Source: Helicobacter cetorum
GTDB lineage: Bacteria > Campylobacterota > Campylobacteria > Campylobacterales > UBA6016
Reading direction: 5' to 3'
Assembly: GCA_022729705.1 (NCBI GenBank)
Contig: DZAX01000008.1
Span: 1 to 64,000, forward strand
DNA length: 64,000 nt
Positions 8,753 to 51,743 of the stretch are shown one piece after another. The translations under genes were made by a program, and so were the position numbers. The notes beneath the pieces were generated by a model. That model did not search any database. It was not told the origin of the DNA and was given only the letters and a program-made list of their open reading frames with translations. Every line of letters starts with the position of its first letter. The stretch's first letter is position 1.

Positions 8753-9628
8753 TTAAGCCTTTGCAAAATGTATAACGGTTAAGTCGTCATCTAGCGTAAT
8801 CGTAAGCGCTCTTGCTCCTATTTCGTCGATAAAAGATTTATCAAATAACTTCATAACTTCGCCGTCAACTTGCGGGAGAACGCTACCCTCAACAAGTCCG
8901 TCGCTATATAAAATAAGTTTTTTAAACTCGTCAAGTTTTACGGTTTGCGGCACCCAATTTGGAATAAAGCTCATCGCCGGAGCGTTGTTTGAGCGAAGCT
9001 CAACTATGTTTTCGCCGTCTTTTATATACGCCGGATACATGCCTGCCATCGCATAACTAACCTCTGTAAAATCAGGGTTAAACCAAAAAAACGAGCCGCT
9101 TAGTTGCTCGCCGTCTGAAAGCATCGTCTCAAACAGATAGGAGAGTCTTGAAAACATCTGCTCCAAATCATCAACTTGAAGTATCGCTTGTTTGACAAAG
9201 GAGGCGAGAGCAAAAGAGGTAAGAGATGGTAACAGTCCGTGTCCCATTGCGTCTATAAGATACAAAAAAGCTCCGCCGGTTCTTGTCTTATGCAAAGAGT
9301 AGGCGTCGCCGCTTAAAATGTCGGCGGCGAGATAGACTATTTTGATGTCAAAACCGTTGTCTTCTTCAAAGTCGTTTGCAATCATAGCTTTTTGTTTTCT
9401 ATGAGCCATCTCTTGCTCGTTTCTTGCTTGTTCGTTTAGTTTTTGCAATATATCTTGCTGCCTGTCGCTTAAACGTATGATTTTATCAAGGCGTTTTACA
9501 TTTTTGGCTAGTGCTGCGGCAACCCTAAAAAGAGAGACCTTGACTTTTTCAATGTCGTTTTCCTGCGCTATTACAGTCTCAGCCTCACTAATAAGTCCCT
9601 TTTCCATTTCAGCAATCTCCCGCAACAT
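8753..9628 (-). CDS. Cytosolic SpoIIE-type PP2C serine/threonine phosphatase
   Basis: Soluble PP2C-family protein of the SpoIIE/RsbU type (291 aa). Residues 1-85 form a charged, coiled-coil-like helical region. The phosphatase core follows, with metal-binding aspartates in AADILSGDAY (about 101-110), DAMGHG (126-131), YSDGLVE (241-247) and DDDLTVIHF (280-288). Enzymes of this class dephosphorylate a phospho-Ser/Thr antagonist protein in partner-switching systems. It has no membrane segment and no obvious sensory domain beyond the helical N-terminus. It is divergently oriented from the SiaA-like gene at 9873, separated by a 244-bp gap holding repeat copy B. That placement suggests it acts on the same SiaC-like target, but this is inference. 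Confidence 0.85.
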   Translation of the reverse strand: MLREIAEMEKGLISEAETVIAQENDIEKVKVSLFRVAAALAKNVKRLDKIIRLSDRQQDILQKLNEQARNEQEMAHRKQKAMIANDFEEDNGFDIKIVYLAADILSGDAYSLHKTRTGGAFLYLIDAMGHGLLPSLTSFALASFVKQAILQVDDLEQMFSRLSYLFETMLSDGEQLSGSFFWFNPDFTEVSYAMAGMYPAYIKDGENIVELRSNNAPAMSFIPNWVPQTVKLDEFKKLILYSDGLVEGSVLPQVDGEVMKLFDKSFIDEIGARALTITLDDDLTVIHFAKA

Positions 9629-9872: not shown

Positions 9873-11528
9873 ATGACTGCTTTACGTCACAGCATACGAT
9901 TACAAATTTTAGTTTTTTCAGCTCTTGCAAATTTATTGTTAATATTTTGTTTTACAGTGTATCTACATCATGTAGAAAAAATAGCGTTGGATGATAAGCT
10001 AAAGGTACAGTTATATACGGCGGCAAAAATGCTACAACCAAGCATGGATGAATACCACTCGAAAATAGAAAATAATCTATCGGTATCTAGCGAAGAGTAC
10101 AATCAAACACTAAAAAAACTGACAAAACTTGCAAACTCCATCGGAGTTGAGTATATCTACACGCTAGTTTTGCAAAATGGTCAAACTTTCTATACGGCGG
10201 ACTCCTATACCGAGGAGGATTTGAAAAAAGGAAAGATAACACGTTTTTATATGCCGTATCCCGATGCGCCAAAAGGCGTAATGGAGGCCATAAACAACTC
10301 CAAACCGACTTTTGAAGAGTATGCCGATAGCTACGGCGAACATAGGTCTATTTTTTTTCCGTCAAGTGCGGTGGATAATAGTTCAAAGCGGTATGTAATT
10401 GGAGTTGATATATCCATAAAACATATAGATGAGGAGCTAAATTCGATTGTATTAGGTTCGGCGTGGTATACGATTGTGGCGATGCTTGTCGCTATGCTAA
10501 TATCGTTTATCGTATACAATCCAATGTTAAACTCAATCGTTGAGCTGTCAAATTTGGCCAAAGAGGTGGCAAAAGGCAATCTATCGGCTAGAAGCAAAAT
10601 ATCCAGAAAAGACGAGATAGGTGACTTGGCGAACTCTATCAATCAAATGATTGGGTCGCTTGGAGAGTTTATTGAAAACATTGAAAAGAAGGTAGGCGAT
10701 AGGACTGAAAACCTGAGCGCGGCAATGAACGAAATAGTAGATTTGCACAAAAGTGTAAGAGACTCTATCAGCTACGCCTCTATGATACAATCGGCTCTTA
10801 TACCTACATTCGATGTGTTAAAGCCGTATTTTTCAGACTGTTTTTCGATTTGGCAACCCAAAGATACGGTTGGCGGCGACATCTATATGTTTGAGAGCTT
10901 TGCCGATAGAGACGCATGTCTTATTTTTGTTATAGACTGCACAGGTCACGGGGTTCCCGGTGCTTTTGTGACGATGCTCGTAAAAGCGATAGAGAGAAGT
11001 GTGGTGGCGCACATTACAAATCATCCAAATCAAGAGGTCAGTCCGGGATATATATTGTCAATTTTTAATAAAAGCATTAAAACAATGCTAAGGCAAGATG
11101 AAAAAAACTCTTTTTCAAACGTCGGATTTGACGGAACTATATTTTATTATAATAAAAAAGAAAAACAGATAAAATTCGCCTCTGCACAAAACCATGTCAT
11201 GTTTATGCAAGACGGTAAAGTAAAATGGTTTAAGGGCGATAGACAAAGCGTGGGATACAAGACAAGCAACCCTGATTTTGTATTTACAGAGCATACTTTA
11301 GAGGCTAAAGAGGGAGATTTATATTTTCTATCTACGGATGGATTATATGATCAAAACGGCGGAGAAAAAGATATTCCTTTTGGACGTAAGAGAGTTGAAA
11401 CAATATTTACAGAAAATGCCGACGAGCCTTTGAATGAAGTCAAAGAGCTTCTTTTGTATGAACTTGGCGCATATCAAGGGCGGAATGAGAGAAATGACGA
11501 TATGGCTTTTATCGGTTTTAAAATATAA
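9873..11528 (+). CDS. siaA: SiaA-like membrane PP2C phosphatase (TM-sensor-TM-HAMP-SpoIIE)
   Basis: Inner-membrane sensor phosphatase. TM1 is at about residues 9-31, an extracytoplasmic sensor at 32-192, TM2 at about 193-215, HAMP at about 216-268, a short coiled coil, then a SpoIIE/PP2C domain at about 300-551. Catalytic/metal motifs are GGDIYMF (334-340), DCTGHGVPG (355-363), STDGLYDQNGG (487-497) and RNDDMAFIGFK (540-550). In Pseudomonas, SiaA dephosphorylates SiaC and thereby controls the diguanylate cyclase SiaD and biofilm formation. Here the receiver, SiaB-like kinase and SiaC-like protein follow on the same strand, supporting the same role. The PP2C half is strikingly similar to that of the protein at 18227-20521, down to near-identical motif blocks, suggesting a duplication or a shared target. 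Confidence 0.85.
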   Translation: MTALRHSIRLQILVFSALANLLLIFCFTVYLHHVEKIALDDKLKVQLYTAAKMLQPSMDEYHSKIENNLSVSSEEYNQTLKKLTKLANSIGVEYIYTLVLQNGQTFYTADSYTEEDLKKGKITRFYMPYPDAPKGVMEAINNSKPTFEEYADSYGEHRSIFFPSSAVDNSSKRYVIGVDISIKHIDEELNSIVLGSAWYTIVAMLVAMLISFIVYNPMLNSIVELSNLAKEVAKGNLSARSKISRKDEIGDLANSINQMIGSLGEFIENIEKKVGDRTENLSAAMNEIVDLHKSVRDSISYASMIQSALIPTFDVLKPYFSDCFSIWQPKDTVGGDIYMFESFADRDACLIFVIDCTGHGVPGAFVTMLVKAIERSVVAHITNHPNQEVSPGYILSIFNKSIKTMLRQDEKNSFSNVGFDGTIFYYNKKEKQIKFASAQNHVMFMQDGKVKWFKGDRQSVGYKTSNPDFVFTEHTLEAKEGDLYFLSTDGLYDQNGGEKDIPFGRKRVETIFTENADEPLNEVKELLLYELGAYQGRNERNDDMAFIGFKI

Positions 11529-11555
11529 AATTTAATAAAATTTAAGGTGTAATGT

Positions 11556-11915
11556 ATGGCGAGAATTATGCTTGTTGACGACTCTAGGGTATCTAGAAGA
11601 GTTATCGGGGATGTATTAATAGGTCTTGGACACAAATTAGCCATAGAGGCTACAAGCGGAGAAGAGGCTTTAGAAAAATATGATAGAGATAAAGTAGACT
11701 GTGTACTGATGGACGTTGAGATGGGCGGCATATCCGGTATAGAGGCGACAAAACTACTAACAGAACAAGACCCGAGCGCAAAGATAATCATAGTGAGTTC
11801 CGTTTCCGAAACAAATAGAATCAAAGAAGCGCTTGCAAGCGGCGCAAAAGGTAATGTGCAAAAACCAGTAAATAGGGAGGCTCTCGGTAAAATGATTGAC
11901 TCTATGTTGACGTAA
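11556..11915 (+). CDS. Stand-alone CheY-like receiver protein
   Basis: A 119-aa single-domain response regulator. It has the acidic pair D8-D9, phospho-acceptor D53 (LMDVEMGG), a conserved Ser at about 81 and K103-P104 (VQKPVN), so it should be phosphorylatable. It has no output domain. It lies 27 nt after the SiaA-like phosphatase and before a new promoter for the SiaB/SiaC pair. I know of no receiver in the canonical siaABCD operon, so it may link a histidine kinase elsewhere to the partner switch. No histidine kinase is in the window. Confidence 0.88.
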   Translation: MARIMLVDDSRVSRRVIGDVLIGLGHKLAIEATSGEEALEKYDRDKVDCVLMDVEMGGISGIEATKLLTEQDPSAKIIIVSSVSETNRIKEALASGAKGNVQKPVNREALGKMIDSMLT

Positions 11916-11927
11916 GTGTCAAAGCCG

Positions 11928-11957
11928 TTGTCAAATTAGCTAGTTATATCGTATAAT
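11928..11957 (+). promoter_or_regulatory. Candidate sigma70-type promoter for the siaBC unit
   Basis: TTGTCA (11928-11933) and TATAAT (11952-11957) with an 18-nt spacer, starting 13 nt after the receiver stop. It would produce a leader of about 170 nt before the siaB-like start. Identified by consensus only. Confidence 0.5.
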
Positions 11958-11963
11958 TACGCA

Positions 11964-12071
11964 AGAACATACATCGCTCAACTGGAATGGGAGTTGCGTA
12001 TTATAAAAAACAATTACTGAGAAGTACCGTTGAGACAATGAGCATAAGTGGCGGCACCGAATTTTTTTTAT
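11964..12071 (+). ncRNA. Possible structured leader or small RNA upstream of siaB
   Basis: Immediately after the candidate promoter the sequence can form alternative pairings. CTCAACT pairs with AGTTG (around 11978-11998), and the same CTCAAC can instead pair with GTTGAG near 12030. A G/C-rich GGCGGCACCG followed by eight T (about 12050-12070) resembles a weak intrinsic terminator. Alternative stems plus a T-run suggest an attenuator or a roughly 100-nt RNA. No known riboswitch class was recognised. Confidence 0.3.
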
Positions 12072-12135
12072 TTAGCGATTATGTGCTAATCTTAAATATA
12101 TCGGCTCCGCATTTATAAAATTTAAAGGGCAGTAT

Positions 12136-12687
12136 ATGGTCGAAAATCTATATAAATTCAAAAATGACCTTGACGATCACGGAGTAATACTGTGTTTTAG
12201 CGGCGTAGTATCGCAAGAGATTCTTTCAACATTTGCCGAGATGATAGAGTTAAAGTTTGAGAGCGAAGGTTTTGCTGATATGACTGTAGCTAGCAATATA
12301 TTTGCAATTTTTGTGGAACTAACGCATAATATAATCAGCTACTCAAGCAATGCGACAATTGTCGGCGATAATAAAAAACAGAGTCCAGGCTTGATAATTA
12401 TAGGACACGATGCGACTCTTGCAAAATTCTATATCAAAAGCGGCAATACCGTAGAGGCGTCATCAAGAGATAGGATTGCCAAGAGAATCGACTCAGTCAA
12501 AAATTTAAATAAAGAGGAGCTAAAAATACTCTACAAAGAGCATCGAAAAAGCGGTAAAAACACTCATGGAAGAGGCGGTGGACTAGGTTTTTTAGAAGTA
12601 CAAAGAAAAGCTAGTGAGCCACTAGAGTACACTTTTAATAAAATTGACGATAACAATTTATTTTTTTGCGTTCAAGCAATAGTTTAG
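12136..12687 (+). CDS. siaB: SiaB-family protein kinase (GHKL fold)
   Basis: A 183-aa SiaB-type (DUF6272) kinase. Family members phosphorylate the partner SiaC, opposing the SiaA phosphatase. The ATP-binding N-box is ELTHN (residues 61-65), in a helix that follows the usual beta-alpha start. The G-box-like loop is GRGGGLGFLEVQRKAS (145-160). There is no membrane segment. It is the first gene after the candidate promoter at 11928 and is followed 12 nt later by the SiaC-like gene, so kinase and substrate are co-expressed. The family call rests on these motifs, the length and the neighbouring DUF1987 protein, which is the diagnostic pairing. Confidence 0.85.
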   Translation: MVENLYKFKNDLDDHGVILCFSGVVSQEILSTFAEMIELKFESEGFADMTVASNIFAIFVELTHNIISYSSNATIVGDNKKQSPGLIIIGHDATLAKFYIKSGNTVEASSRDRIAKRIDSVKNLNKEELKILYKEHRKSGKNTHGRGGGLGFLEVQRKASEPLEYTFNKIDDNNLFFCVQAIV

Positions 12688-12699
12688 GAGACTTAGATT

Positions 12700-13077
12700 A
12701 TGGAAAATATGTTTTTTGAAGCTACCAAGTATACGCCGGAGATTACTCTCGACGCCGATGGAAAGCTCATAAGCCTCAAAGGAAAATCATACCCTGAAAA
12801 TACGTTTGACTTTTATGAGCCGATTGTGGCGTGGCTGAAAAACTATTTTGCAGAGCCAAAAGAGGGAGTTAGCATAGTTTTTGATATATCCTATTTTAAC
12901 TCAAGCTCCTCAAAACTTTTTTTTGATATTTTTGACATCTTTGAAGAGGCCGCGCAAAGAGGGAATACTCTTGGTATAAAATGGGTATATGATGCGGATA
13001 ATGAAAGTGCGCAGGAGGCCGGAGAAGATTTTAAAGATGATTTTGAAGGTTTAGATTTTGAGCTGGTGGAAAAATAA
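12700..13077 (+). CDS. siaC: SiaC-family (DUF1987) regulatory phosphoprotein
   Basis: A 125-aa DUF1987 protein, the switch component. In Pseudomonas, unphosphorylated SiaC binds and activates the diguanylate cyclase SiaD. It is phosphorylated by SiaB and dephosphorylated by SiaA at a conserved threonine (T68, from memory). The family signature FDISYFNSSSSKLFFDIFDIFEEAA is at residues 61-85. The position corresponding to the threonine is here a serine (S68) within a run of four serines. The C-terminal tail is acidic. A terminator-like palindrome follows at 13223. No siaD-like GGDEF gene is adjacent or anywhere in the window, so the target is unknown. Confidence 0.87.
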   Translation: MENMFFEATKYTPEITLDADGKLISLKGKSYPENTFDFYEPIVAWLKNYFAEPKEGVSIVFDISYFNSSSSKLFFDIFDIFEEAAQRGNTLGIKWVYDADNESAQEAGEDFKDDFEGLDFELVEK

Positions 13078-13080
13078 AAA

Positions 13081-13160
13081 GTGAGAACTTAGCGACGGAG
13101 ACACAAATACCCCCCCGAGGAGTTTCCCGAAGCCCACCCGCTTATGCGGGAGAGCGAAAG
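13081..13160 (-). repeat. Dispersed structured repeat, copy C
   Basis: Read on the minus strand this starts CTCTCCCGCATAAGCGGG (hairpin at 13137-13150), then a GGGCTTCGGG linker and a G-rich second segment. It corresponds in order to copies A and B, but the second and third stems are degraded. It sits just after the siaC-like gene in the opposite orientation to the other two copies. Confidence 0.45.
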
Positions 13161-15417: not shown

Positions 15418-15921
15418 GTGAAAAAGCTAACTGCATTGCTATTGTTTTTTGCTACATTTTTACACTCGTACGACTCCGACGACGCTTTAAAGGTCTCTAT
15501 ACTAGAAAAAGCTATTCAATTTATGACCTTTAAAGACAAAAACGAAGCGATAATCGCCGTATATAACAACTCTTACGGCGACGCTTTTGAAAAAACGTTT
15601 GCCGGAAAGCAAATAAACAACAAAAACATCAAAATAAAATATATCGACAATATGGACAAACTTGAGGGCGCGACGGCTCTTTATATCTCAAACGTCGCTA
15701 GCGACACCTTGGGTTTAGTTTTAAAAAAAGCGAGCAATAAAGGTATTTTAACCGTAAGCGACGCTAGGGGCTTTACGGAAAAGGGGGGCGTAATGCAGAT
15801 TTTTATCGCCTCTCAAAAACCAAAATTAAAAATAAATTTAGATGCGGCACAAAAAGAAGATATAAAAATAAAAGCTACGTTGCTTAGAATAGCGGAAATC
15901 TCAAAGGGAGACAACAAATGA
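15418..15921 (+). CDS. YfiR-like periplasmic regulator (DUF4154)
   Basis: A 167-aa periplasmic protein with a Sec signal peptide (residues 1-18, ending LHS-Y). The mature protein has the YfiR/DUF4154 pattern: ILEKAIQFMTFK near the start, NMDKLEGATALYIS in the middle, and the signature ILTVSDARGFTEKGGVMQIF...KLKINLDAAQKEDIKIKATLLRIAEI at the C-terminal half. YfiR in Pseudomonas is a periplasmic repressor of the CHASE8-containing diguanylate cyclase YfiN. This protein has no cysteine, so the disulfide switch described for YfiR cannot operate. The start is GTG at 15418, after an AGAGA-type site. Its stop overlaps the next gene's ATG (ATGA), giving tight coupling. The partner two genes downstream carries the expected sensor but a phosphatase output. 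Confidence 0.82.
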   Translation: MKKLTALLLFFATFLHSYDSDDALKVSILEKAIQFMTFKDKNEAIIAVYNNSYGDAFEKTFAGKQINNKNIKIKYIDNMDKLEGATALYISNVASDTLGLVLKKASNKGILTVSDARGFTEKGGVMQIFIASQKPKLKINLDAAQKEDIKIKATLLRIAEISKGDNK

Positions 15922-18227
15922 GATACTCTAAAAGTTTATTTATTTTTTTATTTGTATCTAGCGCGCTTTTTTCCGCAGATGATATTGCAGAACTTGAAAA
16001 ACTTTTATTGCAAGATACGGAGCTAAAAGCGGATGTAGGCTCAAGATGCGGACTCAAAAACGCTATGCAATCAAATACACCTATAGACGTAATAACAAGC
16101 GAACAGATAGAAAAAACGGGGCTTACCTCTTTAGTGGATGTCATGAGGTATTTTGTAGCCGGGTTCAACGCACCCGAACCCGCCATAACAGACGGAAGCG
16201 ATCACGTCAGGGCGTATACGCTAAGAGGGATGAGCCCCGATCAGATACTGACGCTTATAAACGGCAAGAGACTACACGCCTCCTCTCTTTTGCATATCAA
16301 CGGAACCATAGGGAGAGGGAGCGCTCACGCCGATCTTGATACGTTGCCCGTTAATATGATAGAAAGAATAGAGATACTAAGAGACGGGGCGGCGGCGCAA
16401 TACGGCTCAGATGCGATTGCCGGAGTCGTAAATATCGTACTAAAAGGGATGGGCGGCGGCTCTTCCGTCGCTTTGCAAAACGCCCTTAGATCAGGCGGCG
16501 ATGGGGCTAGTTTATATGCGAGTATGTTTTATTCAAAGGCTATGCGATACGACGGATTTATCAATATTGCAGCCGCGATAAAAAAACAAGAGAGTACCGA
16601 CAACGCCGGACTAGACGCAAGAGCGGGGGTCGCGCCCGTAAGGCATACGACAAAAATGGGCTTGCCAAAGAGCGACAATCTCCAGATGAGCGCAAATATC
16701 GAACTTCCAAACGAAAACGACTCCATAATCTACGCTAACGCAAATATAAATTTTAGAGATAGCGAGGCTAACGCTATATATAGGGCACCAAGCGCTTATT
16801 CGACCAACGGGTTTTTGCCGACGATAAATCCGCAAATTTACGACTATAGGCTAGGGGTCGGGGTAAAAAAAGAGGGCGGAATAATCGATTGGGATATTAG
16901 CTCCGTATACGGGCTAAACGAAATTAGATTTTACGTCAAAGACTCAATGAACTACTCGCTAGCGCCAAACTCTCAAAGCGAGTTTTATAACGGCTCTTTA
17001 AAACTTACCCAAAATACGACAAATTTTGATTTCAAAAAAAAGATTCAAAACTTTGCGCTTGCGGGTGGAGCCGAGTATAGATACGAGGGGTATAAAATAA
17101 AAAATGGCGAGGAGAGCTCATACTATACCAAAATGGGAGTAACGGGCGGAGCGCAAGGACTTAGCGGGTATAAAGTGGAAAGCGCCGTCGATACCTCCAG
17201 AAATAGTTACGCCCTTTATTTTGACGCAAAGTATTTCATAAACCCGAGTAGCTCGCTCGATAGCGCCGTTAGATATGAGAGATATAGCGATTTTGGAGCC
17301 ACGACAAACTATAAACTCGCTTACGGATACGCCATAAACGACGCTTTGACGTTTAGAACCTCCGCAAGCACCGGCTTTAGGGCGCCGTCTTTGGCTCAAT
17401 GGAACTACTCTTACGTCTCCTCTTATGCGTCGTCAACATCTCTCGTATTAGGCGGTATTTTTAGACCCTCCGAGCCTATTGCACAGATATATGGGGCAAA
17501 GAAGCTAAAGGCCGAAAAATCCAAACATTTGGCTTTTGGCGGCGTGTATAGACCCTCCCAAAACGGCTCTTTTACCGTCGATTTTTTTTATAACGAGGTT
17601 GACGACAAAATAGCGTTGTCGAGAAATTATACGACGACAAGCGCCGAACGAGCCGCCTACGGCGTTAGCTTTGTGTCGTTTTTTACAAATGTGTTCTCCA
17701 CAAGGACTAAAGGGGTGGATATAAAATACGAACAGCTATTCGACTTCCCCTCGTTAAAAATAAAATCGTCGATTTGGTACAACTATAACGACAATGAAGT
17801 AACCGACATAAAAGACGCAAAAATCACTAGAAGCAACTCTTTTAGAGAGATAGACAAGCTAGAAAACGGACAACCAAAACATAGCGCAAAGTGGCTAAAC
17901 GCATTTGATTTTGGCAAATTTTCCGCTGCCGTCAATATAAATTATTTTGGCTCTTTCAAGGACGTTCCACCCTCCGGCGAAGCCTCTTATAATTTTGACC
18001 CTATCGTAACGACCGACTGCGACGTATCCTATAAATACAATAAAAATATATCGTTTACCGTTGGCGGACTAAATATCTTTAACGCAATGCATAGTAAGTG
18101 GGATAGAACAATCTCTTCGGGAGGCAGTTATTTTTACGCCAAGGACGGGCTATTGCCCTACTCTCAATACTCTCCGATGGGTTTTAGCGGCGGGTATTAC
18201 TACATAAAAGCAAACATAAAGTTCTAA
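15918..18227 (+). CDS. TonB-dependent outer-membrane receptor
   Basis: A 769-aa TonB-dependent receptor. It has a signal peptide (residues 1-19, ending ALFSA), a plug domain at about 45-175 (TPIDVITSEQIEKTGLTSLVDVMRYF..., LRGMSPDQILTLINGKRLHASSL, IERIEILRDGAAAQYGSDAIAGVVNIV), then a beta barrel ending in an aromatic C-terminal strand (…GYYYIKANIKF). The substrate cannot be read from sequence. The overall plug style (iron/cobalamin-type or carbohydrate-type) is not diagnostic. It overlaps the upstream YfiR-like gene by 4 nt (ATGA) and the downstream sensor phosphatase gene by 3 nt (TAATG), so all three are one coupled unit. YfiR-like/TonB-receptor/CHASE8-sensor operons are known, which supports a sensing rather than purely nutritional role. 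Confidence 0.92.
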   Translation: MRYSKSLFIFLFVSSALFSADDIAELEKLLLQDTELKADVGSRCGLKNAMQSNTPIDVITSEQIEKTGLTSLVDVMRYFVAGFNAPEPAITDGSDHVRAYTLRGMSPDQILTLINGKRLHASSLLHINGTIGRGSAHADLDTLPVNMIERIEILRDGAAAQYGSDAIAGVVNIVLKGMGGGSSVALQNALRSGGDGASLYASMFYSKAMRYDGFINIAAAIKKQESTDNAGLDARAGVAPVRHTTKMGLPKSDNLQMSANIELPNENDSIIYANANINFRDSEANAIYRAPSAYSTNGFLPTINPQIYDYRLGVGVKKEGGIIDWDISSVYGLNEIRFYVKDSMNYSLAPNSQSEFYNGSLKLTQNTTNFDFKKKIQNFALAGGAEYRYEGYKIKNGEESSYYTKMGVTGGAQGLSGYKVESAVDTSRNSYALYFDAKYFINPSSSLDSAVRYERYSDFGATTNYKLAYGYAINDALTFRTSASTGFRAPSLAQWNYSYVSSYASSTSLVLGGIFRPSEPIAQIYGAKKLKAEKSKHLAFGGVYRPSQNGSFTVDFFYNEVDDKIALSRNYTTTSAERAAYGVSFVSFFTNVFSTRTKGVDIKYEQLFDFPSLKIKSSIWYNYNDNEVTDIKDAKITRSNSFREIDKLENGQPKHSAKWLNAFDFGKFSAAVNINYFGSFKDVPPSGEASYNFDPIVTTDCDVSYKYNKNISFTVGGLNIFNAMHSKWDRTISSGGSYFYAKDGLLPYSQYSPMGFSGGYYYIKANIKF

Positions 18228-20521
18228 TGAGATCGATTAGGTCAAAACTCATTTTCATGCTAAGCCTTTCGGCTTTGCTCTCTATCGCCCTCACCTCTAC
18301 AGCCCTTTTTATCTACAAGTACAACCAAAGCAGGTCTCAAGCCATAAGCATACTATCAGATATGGCGGCTGTAATGAGCGAAAATCTTACCGCCTCTTTG
18401 GAGTTTGACGACGAGGCAAGCGCCAAATCTATACTTAACGCTTTTAAAAATTCCGGCAGAATAGACGGCGCCTATCTACTAAAAAAAGACGGCTCGATGC
18501 TGGCAAAATACGAAAAAGATGGGTTAAATAAAGAGTTAATATTAAAAAAAGCCAAACCATTTTTTGAAAATATACTCATAAAGCCCGAGTCAAGCTCTTT
18601 TGATTTTAACTCTATATTTTTGGCTAAACAGATAATTTTAAACGACAAACATATAGGATCCGTCGTTATCGCCTCTAATACAAAGGAGATGCAAGAGACG
18701 CTTTACACTCAGCTTTTTATGCAAACAACAACGTCGTTAATAGCGCTAATTTTGATGATTTTGCTTGCGTTTAGACTCCAAAAAGCGTTTACCGACCCAA
18801 TTTACACTTTAAAAAATGCGTTTGACGCCGTTAGGCTAAAAAACGATTACTCCGCCAAGATAGACCTAAAAACAAACGACGAGTTTCAATCTTTGTTTGA
18901 CGGTTTTGGAAAAATGCTGGAAACTATAAAAAATCAAAAAGCGGAGCTTGAAGTATATACCGATAGCCTAAACGAGACTATAGCGCTTAAAACGGCGGAC
19001 ATTCAAAACCAAAAGGCAAGGCTGGAGAGGCTGCTTGTGACTCTCGATAAAAACGTAATATTTTCAAGAACCGATTTAGAGGGCGTCATCACTCAAGCCT
19101 CGGAGGCTTTTTGCAAAATTAGCGGCTACTCAAAAGAGGAGCTCATAGGCAAACCTCACAATATAGTAAGGCATCCCGATATGCCAACAAGCGTGTACGC
19201 AGAGCTTTGGAATACGCTCAAAGACGGCAAAATATGGCATGGCGAGGTTAAAAATCAGAAAAAAGACGGCGGATACTACTGGGCGGAGAGCGTTATATCT
19301 CCAGAATACGATAATTTTGGCTCACAGGTAGGTTTTAGCGCTATACAACAAGATATAACGGCAAAAAAACGCGAAGAGGTAGAGAGAATACTTGAAAATA
19401 TATTGTTGCCAATACTAATAACATCAAGAGCCGAGCGAAAAATACTCTACGCCAATAAATACGCAGAAGACCAATACGATAGACCGCTTTGCGAGCTAAT
19501 AGGCGCCGACATCGACAACGTATATACCGCAAAGGGGCAACAAGAACAGATACTTGAACTTTTGTCAAAAAACGGTAGAGTTCTAAATCTTGAAGAGAAT
19601 TTCAAAACCGCCGGAGGCAAAGAGTTTACGGCGCTCTTATCTGTTATCCCTATCGTATATTCTGGAATTGATTGCTATATCGGCATGGTGACGGATATAA
19701 CAGAGCAAAAAAGAATAGAAAACGAATTTAGAATACTCCATCAGCATACAAAAGAGTCTATAGAGTACGCTTCGTTGCTTCAACATTCGCTTATCCCATC
19801 AAGCGACCTTTTCAAAAAGTATTTTTCGGATCACTTTGTTATTTGGCATCCAAAAGATATAGTGGGAGGCGATATATATCTGTTTGACGAACTTGAAAAG
19901 CGCAACGAATGCTTGCTATTTGTGATAGACTGCACAGGACACGGCGTTCCCGGCGCTTTTGTTACGATGCTCGTAAAGGCAATTGAGCGCGAAATTGTCT
20001 CGCAAATCAATAACGACGATATGACCGACGTGAGCCCCGCTTGGATACTCTCATATTTTAACAAAACGATGAAGTATCTATTAAGACAAGACAGTGATAA
20101 AGCTATAAGCAACGCCGGTTTTGACGGCGCTATCATTCACTATAATAAACAAAATAGAGTTTTAAAATTTGCGGGGGCTCAAACTAACTTGTTTTATGTT
20201 CAAGACGACAAGTTAAATATCATAAAAGGAGATAGACACTCTATCGGATATAAAAAATCTAACGCCGATTTTCAATTTACGGAACATACGATACAAGCCG
20301 CAAACGAGATGCGCATATATTTGACGACGGACGGCTATATAGATCAAAACGGCGGAGACAAAGGTTTTCCATTTGGCAAAACGAGATTTGGCGATATGAT
20401 AGAGACAAGTTATACCGAAAGTTTTGCGGATCAAAAAGAGCTGTTTTTGTATGGATTACAAAAATATCAAAAAGACGAAATTCGCAATGACGATATAACG
20501 TTGATAGGGTTTAAAATATGA
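18227..20521 (+). CDS. CHASE8-HAMP-PAS-PAS sensor with SpoIIE/PP2C phosphatase output
   Basis: A 764-aa inner-membrane protein. TM1 is at about residues 8-30. A periplasmic CHASE8-like domain spans about 31-160 (ENLTASLEFDDEASAKSILNAF, GAYLLKKDGSMLAKYEKDG). TM2 is at about 167-187, HAMP about 188-240, coiled coil about 240-275. PAS1 covers about 276-385, with an Aer-like NIVRHPDMP segment that in related PAS domains accompanies FAD binding. PAS2 covers about 386-498. The PP2C domain covers about 510-764, with GGDIYLF (547-553), DCTGHGVPG (568-576), TTDGYIDQNGG (700-710) and RNDDITLIGFK (753-763). CHASE8 plus an operonic YfiR and TonB receptor is the layout of YfiN-type diguanylate cyclases, but GGDEF is replaced by a phosphatase nearly identical in its motifs to the SiaA-like PP2C at 9873. 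The likely target is the SiaC-like protein at 12700; this is inference. Confidence 0.87.
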   Translation: MRSIRSKLIFMLSLSALLSIALTSTALFIYKYNQSRSQAISILSDMAAVMSENLTASLEFDDEASAKSILNAFKNSGRIDGAYLLKKDGSMLAKYEKDGLNKELILKKAKPFFENILIKPESSSFDFNSIFLAKQIILNDKHIGSVVIASNTKEMQETLYTQLFMQTTTSLIALILMILLAFRLQKAFTDPIYTLKNAFDAVRLKNDYSAKIDLKTNDEFQSLFDGFGKMLETIKNQKAELEVYTDSLNETIALKTADIQNQKARLERLLVTLDKNVIFSRTDLEGVITQASEAFCKISGYSKEELIGKPHNIVRHPDMPTSVYAELWNTLKDGKIWHGEVKNQKKDGGYYWAESVISPEYDNFGSQVGFSAIQQDITAKKREEVERILENILLPILITSRAERKILYANKYAEDQYDRPLCELIGADIDNVYTAKGQQEQILELLSKNGRVLNLEENFKTAGGKEFTALLSVIPIVYSGIDCYIGMVTDITEQKRIENEFRILHQHTKESIEYASLLQHSLIPSSDLFKKYFSDHFVIWHPKDIVGGDIYLFDELEKRNECLLFVIDCTGHGVPGAFVTMLVKAIEREIVSQINNDDMTDVSPAWILSYFNKTMKYLLRQDSDKAISNAGFDGAIIHYNKQNRVLKFAGAQTNLFYVQDDKLNIIKGDRHSIGYKKSNADFQFTEHTIQAANEMRIYLTTDGYIDQNGGDKGFPFGKTRFGDMIETSYTESFADQKELFLYGLQKYQKDEIRNDDITLIGFKI

Positions 20522-33480: not shown

Positions 33481-33695
33481 TGAAATGTCAACCCCTTTCC
33501 CAACAAACGGATTTCATTTAAGCGCATAGCTTAACCTCTGTTTCGTTTTTACTCAAGTTCCCTTTTTCAAAGTATCGCTTTTCATGCTCCGCCGGACTCA
33601 TATTGCCAAGCGCCGAGTGTAGCCTTTGTCTATTATAAAACACCTCTATATATTCAAATATCTGTTTTCTTACCTCCTCAGGTGTTGGCAGGGAT
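33481..33695 (-). mobile_element. IS3-type transposase (OrfB) 3' fragment
   Basis: The minus-strand frame [42 protein letters not shown] is the C-terminal end of an IS3-family integrase-type transposase, with its stop at 33518. The fragment is fused at about 33695 to an IS481-type transposase frame, giving a chimeric junction. Non-functional. Confidence 0.7.
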
Positions 33696-34233
33696 GGTTT
33701 TGTTAAATATCTCCACTTGTCCATTAGTCCAGGGGTGTTTAAATTTAGTTAATCTATGTTCAATACCATTTGCCGTGCAAATAGCGTCAAATGGATGAAT
33801 CTTGTTTTTAGGTTTTAGATGTTCCGCCAACAATTCATATGTGAATTGAGCCCCATTGTCTGTAAGTATCTATGAAGATTAGACCTTGAGAGAGCTGGAA
33901 TTTTATCTTTTAAGGCGATAAAACAATCATCTAGCGATAGTTTTGTTACTCGTCTAAACTCACAGACAATTTGTTGTTCTGTGTCGCTTAGCGATGATTT
34001 AATCTTTTTAGCACCACTCTTTTTATCTTCTGTGCTTGTATCTCTTTTCCATCTATGAACTGTTTTTGGATTAAGATTATATTTGATTGCTAACTTTGCG
34101 ATACTCTCACAAGAGTCTTGAATTTCTTTTCTGATTCTTGGCGTGGTTTTGGCGTTAGCGTGCAATAAATTTCCCATAAATTAGCCTCCATAAGGTGTTT
34201 GTGTATTATACCTGAAGAATGGGGGGCTAAACA
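33696..34233 (-). mobile_element. IS481-type element (family B), 5' fragment
   Basis: It begins at the terminal repeat TGTTTAGCCCCCCATTCTTC (34233 inward) and encodes the N-terminal winged-helix region LHANAKTTPRIRKEIQDSCE, then VHRWKRDTSTEDKK, DDCFIALKDKIPALSRSNLH (from 34177). It continues after frame breaks to [20 protein letters not shown], where it is cut by the IS3 fragment. The same N-terminus recurs at 51457-51675. Confidence 0.75.
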
Positions 34234-51199: not shown

Positions 51200-51743
51200 T
51201 GTTTAATCCCCTAAACTTCAGGTACAGATTATCTTTAAAAAGTTCAGGGCTGGAGTCAAACTTTTCTAGCAATATAGTATAAGGGGTCTTAAACTTTAAA
51301 GCTTTTAATTTCTTCTGGTGGTTATAATACAGAAGATAACTCATCAGGTGTTGTTTAAGCTCGTCTACCGTCTCGTAATGATATGTTTTTGTCGTAGCGT
51401 TTTTAATAGTCTTGTTAAATATCTCCACTTGTCCATTAGTCCAGGGGTGTTTAAATTTAGGGTCTAAACTCACAGACAATTTGTTGTTCTGTGTCGCTTA
51501 GTGATGATTTAATCTTTTTAGCACCACTCTTTTTATCTTCTGTGCTTGTATCTCTTTTCCATCTATGAACTGTTTTTGGATTAAGATTATATTTGATTGC
51601 TAACTTTGCGATACTCTCACAAGAGTCTTGAATTTCTTTTCTGATTCTTGGCGTGGTTTTGGCGTTAGCGTGCAATCAATTTCCCATAAATTAGCTTCCA
51701 TAGGGTGTTTGTGTATTATACCTGAAGAATGGGGGGCTAAACA
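51200..51743 (-). mobile_element. Internally deleted IS481-type element (family B)
   Basis: A 544-bp copy with terminal inverted repeats TGTTTAATCCCCTAAACTTC (51200-) and the complement of GAAGAATGGGGGGCTAAACA at the other end (51743). The minus strand encodes the transposase N-terminus (MHANAKTTPRIRKEIQDSCE..., 51675-51457). It is fused out of frame, by a central deletion near 51460-51480, to the C-terminus ([60 protein letters not shown]), whose frame runs past the element end to 51132. The catalytic core is lost, so it cannot move alone. The flanks 51086-51199 and 51744-51828 hold nothing recognisable. Confidence 0.8.

Follow-up and report, generated by a model that had tools for sequence, protein, structure and literature searches.

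The siaABC-like cluster at positions 9873-13077 of the window, by which we mean the whole 64,000-nucleotide stretch of a Helicobacter cetorum contig analysed here, raises the question of what a SiaC switch controls where no diguanylate cyclase gene lies nearby. In Pseudomonas the switch turns on a signal-making enzyme, SiaD (PMC8457831, PMC7647112). Open reading frames and Pfam matches bear out the four-gene order given by a first-pass annotation, with all genes on the + strand: a SiaA-type phosphatase with an N-terminal sensor region, HAMP and PP2C domains (9873..11528, +; Pfam HAMP and SpoIIE; NCBIfam SiaA 8e-76, under the equivalog cut-off), a single-domain receiver (11556..11915, +; Pfam Response_reg) in which D53 and K103 are both present, as had been stated, a SiaB-type kinase (12136..12687, +; Pfam DUF6272 (SiaB) 2.8e-35; PDB 6KKO 2e-19) and the DUF1987 protein, a SiaC phosphoprotein (12700..13077, +; Pfam SiaC 1.2e-42; PDB 6KKO/7E6G 2e-20). 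The phosphatase, kinase and SiaC of a SiaABC partner switch are therefore encoded together. The kinase also scores above the cut-off of the NCBIfam SiaB subfamily model, and a motif check found its catalytic Glu (E61) and G-rich loop kept. SiaC carries a phospho-acceptor equivalent, S68, aligned to T68 of the Pseudomonas protein, and conserves the contacts Y31, Y65, N67, S69, D79 and D114; in helix 3, R103 is changed to Ser and L107 to Ala, as in other stalk-linked SiaCs. From the intact catalytic motifs we predict that SiaB adds, and SiaA removes, phosphate on SiaC.

The cluster had also been described as followed by a terminator. A terminator-like site is indeed seen after siaC, at 13139-13156, but its stem is short (5 pairs) and such sites are only about twice as numerous as in shuffled sequence (9 found, 4.6 expected). 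Whether the four genes share a single transcript is uncertain, because siaB starts 220 nt past the receiver gene, behind a promoter-like TTGTCA-18-TATAAT (11/12 match) in the non-coding gap at 11916-12135, a strong site of its kind. No known RNA family was found in the window at the gathering threshold.

Divergent from siaA, 244 bp upstream of it and thus outside the interval of the first-pass annotation, which had begun at 9873, lies a gene (8753..9628, -) for a 291-aa protein with a SpoIIE/PP2C domain (9.3e-16), which we propose as the effector of the switch in the place of SiaD. Its N-terminal part includes KNVKRLDKIIRLSDRQQDILQK. The SiaD residues that SiaC touches in the crystal structure of their complex are R74, K77, V78, R80, I81, S82, D83, R84, Y85, Q86, M88, R90 and D91 (PMC8457831). 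In an alignment to these contacts (7E6G) anchored on the invariant Asp, the motif RLDKIIRLSDRQQDILQK (aa 46-63; 9440..9493, -) is identical at seven of them, R46, K49, R52, S54, D55, R56 and Q58 corresponding to SiaD R74, K77, R80, S82, D83, R84 and Q86, while V78, I81, Y85, M88, R90 and D91 are replaced by I, L, Q, I, Q and K. Positions 59-92 of the NCBIfam SiaD model match aa 37-70 of the protein (E 3.5e-4), that is, the stalk only. The top PDB match of a SiaD-free profile, made from stalks in SiaC neighbourhoods, is SiaD itself (7E6G, 2.4e-7), with both docking motifs covered, and a profile made without the window protein recovers it at E 5.7e-11 as the sole stalk match in the genome.

The AlphaFold2 model predicts the stalk as one continuous helix of 57 residues (aa 26-82; 9383..9553, -; pLDDT about 64-83 over the helix, 78 overall) that runs into a PP2C fold, to which the nearest solved folds include RssB and the SiaA PP2C. 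The acidic metal-binding motifs of the PP2C domain are intact (SGD, DAMGHG, SDGL, DDDLT). The protein thus has the SiaC-docking stalk of SiaD, with one docking motif (aa 46-63) where SiaD has two, and carries SpoIIE/PP2C instead of GGDEF; therefore we do not class it as a SiaD.

That no GGDEF protein is encoded in the window, as first noted, agrees with the genome as a whole (2.19 Mb, 75 contigs), whose 15 GGDEF proteins all sit on other contigs. It had been argued from this absence that the switch must have some other target, or else work on a cyclase encoded far away. When a SiaD-like protein was sought in the rest of the genome by profile search, the SiaC-docking stalk was found in none of the 15 GGDEF proteins, and the only stalk found in the genome is that of the adjacent PP2C protein. 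These results support the first part of the argument and disfavour the second; a distant SiaD was rejected on the same ground. With so many GGDEF proteins encoded, the switch might still act on a diguanylate cyclase encoded elsewhere that lacks a recognisable stalk; yet the profile that matches none of them does match SiaD, the SiaD-like proteins of Azospirillum and Tistrella and the stalk-GGDEF proteins of two siaC loci (L066, L167), and we consider such a target very improbable.

We then have to weigh whether the stalk is specific to SiaC. Helical linkers commonly precede PP2C domains, and the motif could belong to a generic coiled coil, the PP2C gene being an unrelated neighbour. This is contradicted by the contact-by-contact match to SiaD, by the rank of SiaD in the PDB search and by a near-perfect co-occurrence with SiaC: SiaC is present in 17 of 18 stalk genomes against 22 of 397 related genomes overall (P 1.6e-24, a value that ignores the relatedness of genomes), and among 100 relatives all 17 stalk genomes fall within the 22 that are SiaC-positive (P 4e-15, with genomes taken as independent). 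By our own count, siaC is no more than about 5 kb away from 26 of the 35 stalk matches in the relatives. This proximity is partly circular because the stalk profiles came from siaC neighbours, a circularity that touches neither the co-occurrence across whole genomes nor the match to SiaD. Among 1095 fetched proteins, a set enriched for SiaC neighbourhoods, a strict form of the motif is present in 24, all of them stalk proteins, and it never appears in 20 shuffles. We therefore give the generic coil very little credence.

The stalk residues, SiaD as the top PDB match and the SiaC co-occurrence all count in favour of docking, and we hold it very likely that SiaC docks on the stalk of the PP2C protein. 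Sequence shows the parts of the switch, a docking motif, PP2C motifs that are intact and co-occurrence with SiaC, and we consider it likely that the output of this SiaABC switch, in the sense of docking together with control, is a PP2C phosphatase and not a diguanylate cyclase. Against this reading stand the single docking motif in the window stalk where SiaD has two, the replacement of the helix-3 contacts R103 and L107 in SiaC, and a second SiaC set, on contig C48, that has no stalk partner in the genome.

We hypothesize that the SiaA-type sensor phosphatases would take phosphate off SiaC S68 and the SiaB-type kinase would put it on; unphosphorylated SiaC would dock on the coiled-coil stalk of the 8753-9628 (-) protein, ordering and dimerising it, and would thereby turn on the PP2C domain, in the way that SiaD is switched on by SiaC and RsbU by RsbT. 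That docking activates the phosphatase seems probable to us, if somewhat less so than control of some kind, since activation and its direction are taken by analogy from those two systems. Relative to SiaABCD of Pseudomonas aeruginosa (PMC8457831, PMC7647112), the locus is alike in its PP2C phosphatase, SiaB kinase, SiaC and stalk with SiaC contact residues, and differs in its PP2C output, its one docking motif, a Ser in place of Thr at the phospho-site, an extra receiver and an effector gene placed divergently upstream. RsbT activates RsbU by ordering a linker of this kind (PMC12143880); the proposed logic is the same, in that a partner orders a linker helix and the PP2C becomes active, but there the partner is the kinase RsbT, acting on the RsbU N-terminal domain and linker, whereas here it would be the SiaC phosphoprotein on a SiaD stalk.

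What would the phosphatase act on in turn? Stalk-PP2C proteins occur in two further families (loci L128 and L132), both from SiaC-positive genomes, with PP2C domains 35-44% identical, while the closest PP2C relatives in six genomes that lack SiaC have, as read by eye from the sequences, PAS-like or GAF-like N-termini in the stalk's place. Within the genome, the nearest PP2C among those compared (31% identity) belongs to a receiver-PP2C-HATPase protein on contig C6, which we take to be HsbR-like from its domain layout alone. Its neighbour is a 102-aa protein of SpoIIAA/RsbV fold (pLDDT 89.7, TM 0.78) with the two marks of RsbV/SpoIIAA-like proteins, the STAS fold and a Ser where the helix following the third strand begins; in its family a pair of serines around a core of the type DS..(I/L)TSS is invariant. 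A Pfam STAS search gave no match to this protein, which was found through the PP2C neighbourhood and its fold. Of 150 relatives, 36 encode a member of the family, among them all three genomes with a stalk-PP2C; where the family is present, 11 of 23 related PP2Cs are encoded within 3.5 kb of it. Because the case consists of family likeness and gene neighbourhood, we regard the C6 protein as a candidate substrate of the stalk-PP2C and no more, and our support for it is tentative. It is nevertheless the best candidate for the phosphoprotein to which the activated phosphatase would pass the signal, and as the target it would place two partner switches in series. Connected partner switches have been reported for HsbR-HsbA / CrsR-CrsA (PMC6482189), which the C6 pair resembles in having a receiver-PP2C-kinase layout beside an anti-sigma-antagonist fold; in those systems the input is a receiver, where the stalk-PP2C has its stalk and no kinase domain.

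The stalk-PP2C might instead dephosphorylate SiaC itself, or the SiaC of the C48 set, so that SiaC docking would make the switch self-reinforcing. SiaC is a known PP2C substrate in Pseudomonas, and the genome has three SiaC genes, one of them truncated. The PP2C domain shares only about 18-26% identity with SiaA-type PP2C domains across most of their length, however, and is nearer to the HsbR-like one, and SiaA-type phosphatases are already there to dephosphorylate SiaC. We judge such feedback unlikely.

Besides the C48 set, which is a second SiaABC set, a decayed third Sia locus on contig C52 (L049:4504-6254, -) holds a phosphatase and a truncated SiaC, with SiaB missing. In the window, downstream of siaC, three genes follow one another on the + strand: a YfiR/HmsC-like periplasmic protein (15418..15921, +; DUF4154 1.4e-25), a TonB-dependent receptor (15918..18227, +) and a second SiaA-type phosphatase with CHASE8, HAMP, PAS and PP2C domains (18227..20521, +; NCBIfam SiaA 2e-73, under the cut-off), whose PP2C shares 56% identity with the PP2C of 9873-11528. 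A like three-gene order is found in two clusters with siaB, siaC and a stalk gene (L083, L088), the first two genes there being judged by size, position and N-terminal sequence only. The trio at 15418-20521 is a possible second input to the switch. Farther along, 33694-34233 and 51406-51743 contain almost identical repeats of 282 nt (99%) and 55 nt (96%), which are probably copies of a mobile element.

The receiver had been seen at first as standing in place of SiaD and as a possible point of two-component input. The former idea was rejected, since clusters of identical gene order have both a receiver and a stalk effector: phosphatase, receiver, SiaB and SiaC genes are followed by a stalk effector in L088, L166 and L168, and by a stalk-GGDEF in L167. 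The presence of a receiver inside the cluster in several genomes, between the SiaA and SiaB genes, could also suggest that it is a direct output partner of SiaC. It has no docking stalk, it occurs together with stalk effectors in L167, L168 and L088, and it is missing from many SiaABC clusters; we think such a role highly unlikely. Among the fetched proteins, which were biased towards SiaABC loci, the window receiver is most closely related to receivers from other clusters of that type, and in whole-genome searches the best receiver match lies within ~3.5 kb of siaC in five genomes (G336, G410, G048, G413, G088) and not in the others. Receivers fused to SiaA-type PP2C domains are found in L066 and L067. 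Since a receiver gene also stands between those for SiaA and SiaB in other genomes, in one case with a stalk GGDEF next to it, we conclude that it is probably an extra input, and two-component signalling through it, probably onto the phosphatase, is plausible. Another receiver, with 58% identity to the one in the window, is encoded at G000:C40:52050-52391 (L187:5533-5892, -) beside molybdopterin-synthase-like small genes, with no sia genes in the 11.5 kb examined around it.

The 50 stalk proteins include 22 that match HD-GYP, 13 HATPase_c, 5 adenylate/guanylate cyclase, 3 GGDEF and 3 PP2C, counts of matching families that are not exclusive classes. A row of genes on an Azospirillum plasmid encodes PP2C, siaB, siaC, a stalk histidine kinase and a stalk GGDEF; stalk effectors are therefore not confined to one phylum. 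A scan of the collection with one SiaC protein gave two loci only. Stand-alone stalk proteins without an output domain occur in the siaC clusters L076 (6624-7001, -; 125 aa) and L066 (8401-8634, +; 77 aa) and are possible competitors for SiaC.

DUF1987 proteins have been proposed to modulate adjacent proteins (PMC8457831), and exchangeable coiled-coil linkers have been proposed across phosphatases, kinases and cyclases (PMC12143880). In Campylobacterota, gene clusters that bring together PP2C, stas_STYK and STAS proteins with c-di-GMP enzymes led to the proposal of a combined pathway (PMC9239204); the parts of that work available to us make no mention of the SiaD docking stalk or of PP2C or adenylate-cyclase outputs of SiaC. 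In the literature searched, most subscription papers, preprints and the 2020 EMBO J SiaABC paper lying outside that search, we found no report of a SiaD stalk on phosphatases, kinases or adenylate cyclases.

That the docking sequence is found on many other enzyme types in related bacteria suggests a single switch whose outputs can be exchanged. We tentatively hypothesize, with less than even confidence, that the SiaD stalk is a portable SiaC-docking plug, used in more than one phylum to control whatever output is attached to it, be it GGDEF, HD-GYP, histidine kinase, adenylate cyclase or PP2C, and that here it drives a phosphatase feeding a second, RsbV-like partner switch. If this is true, SiaC would be a general adaptor for stalk-bearing outputs rather than a regulator dedicated to c-di-GMP; sequence alone would predict the targets of many DUF1987 proteins; and the family would offer a direct test of how a single coiled-coil signal can act on cyclases, phosphodiesterases, kinases and phosphatases alike.
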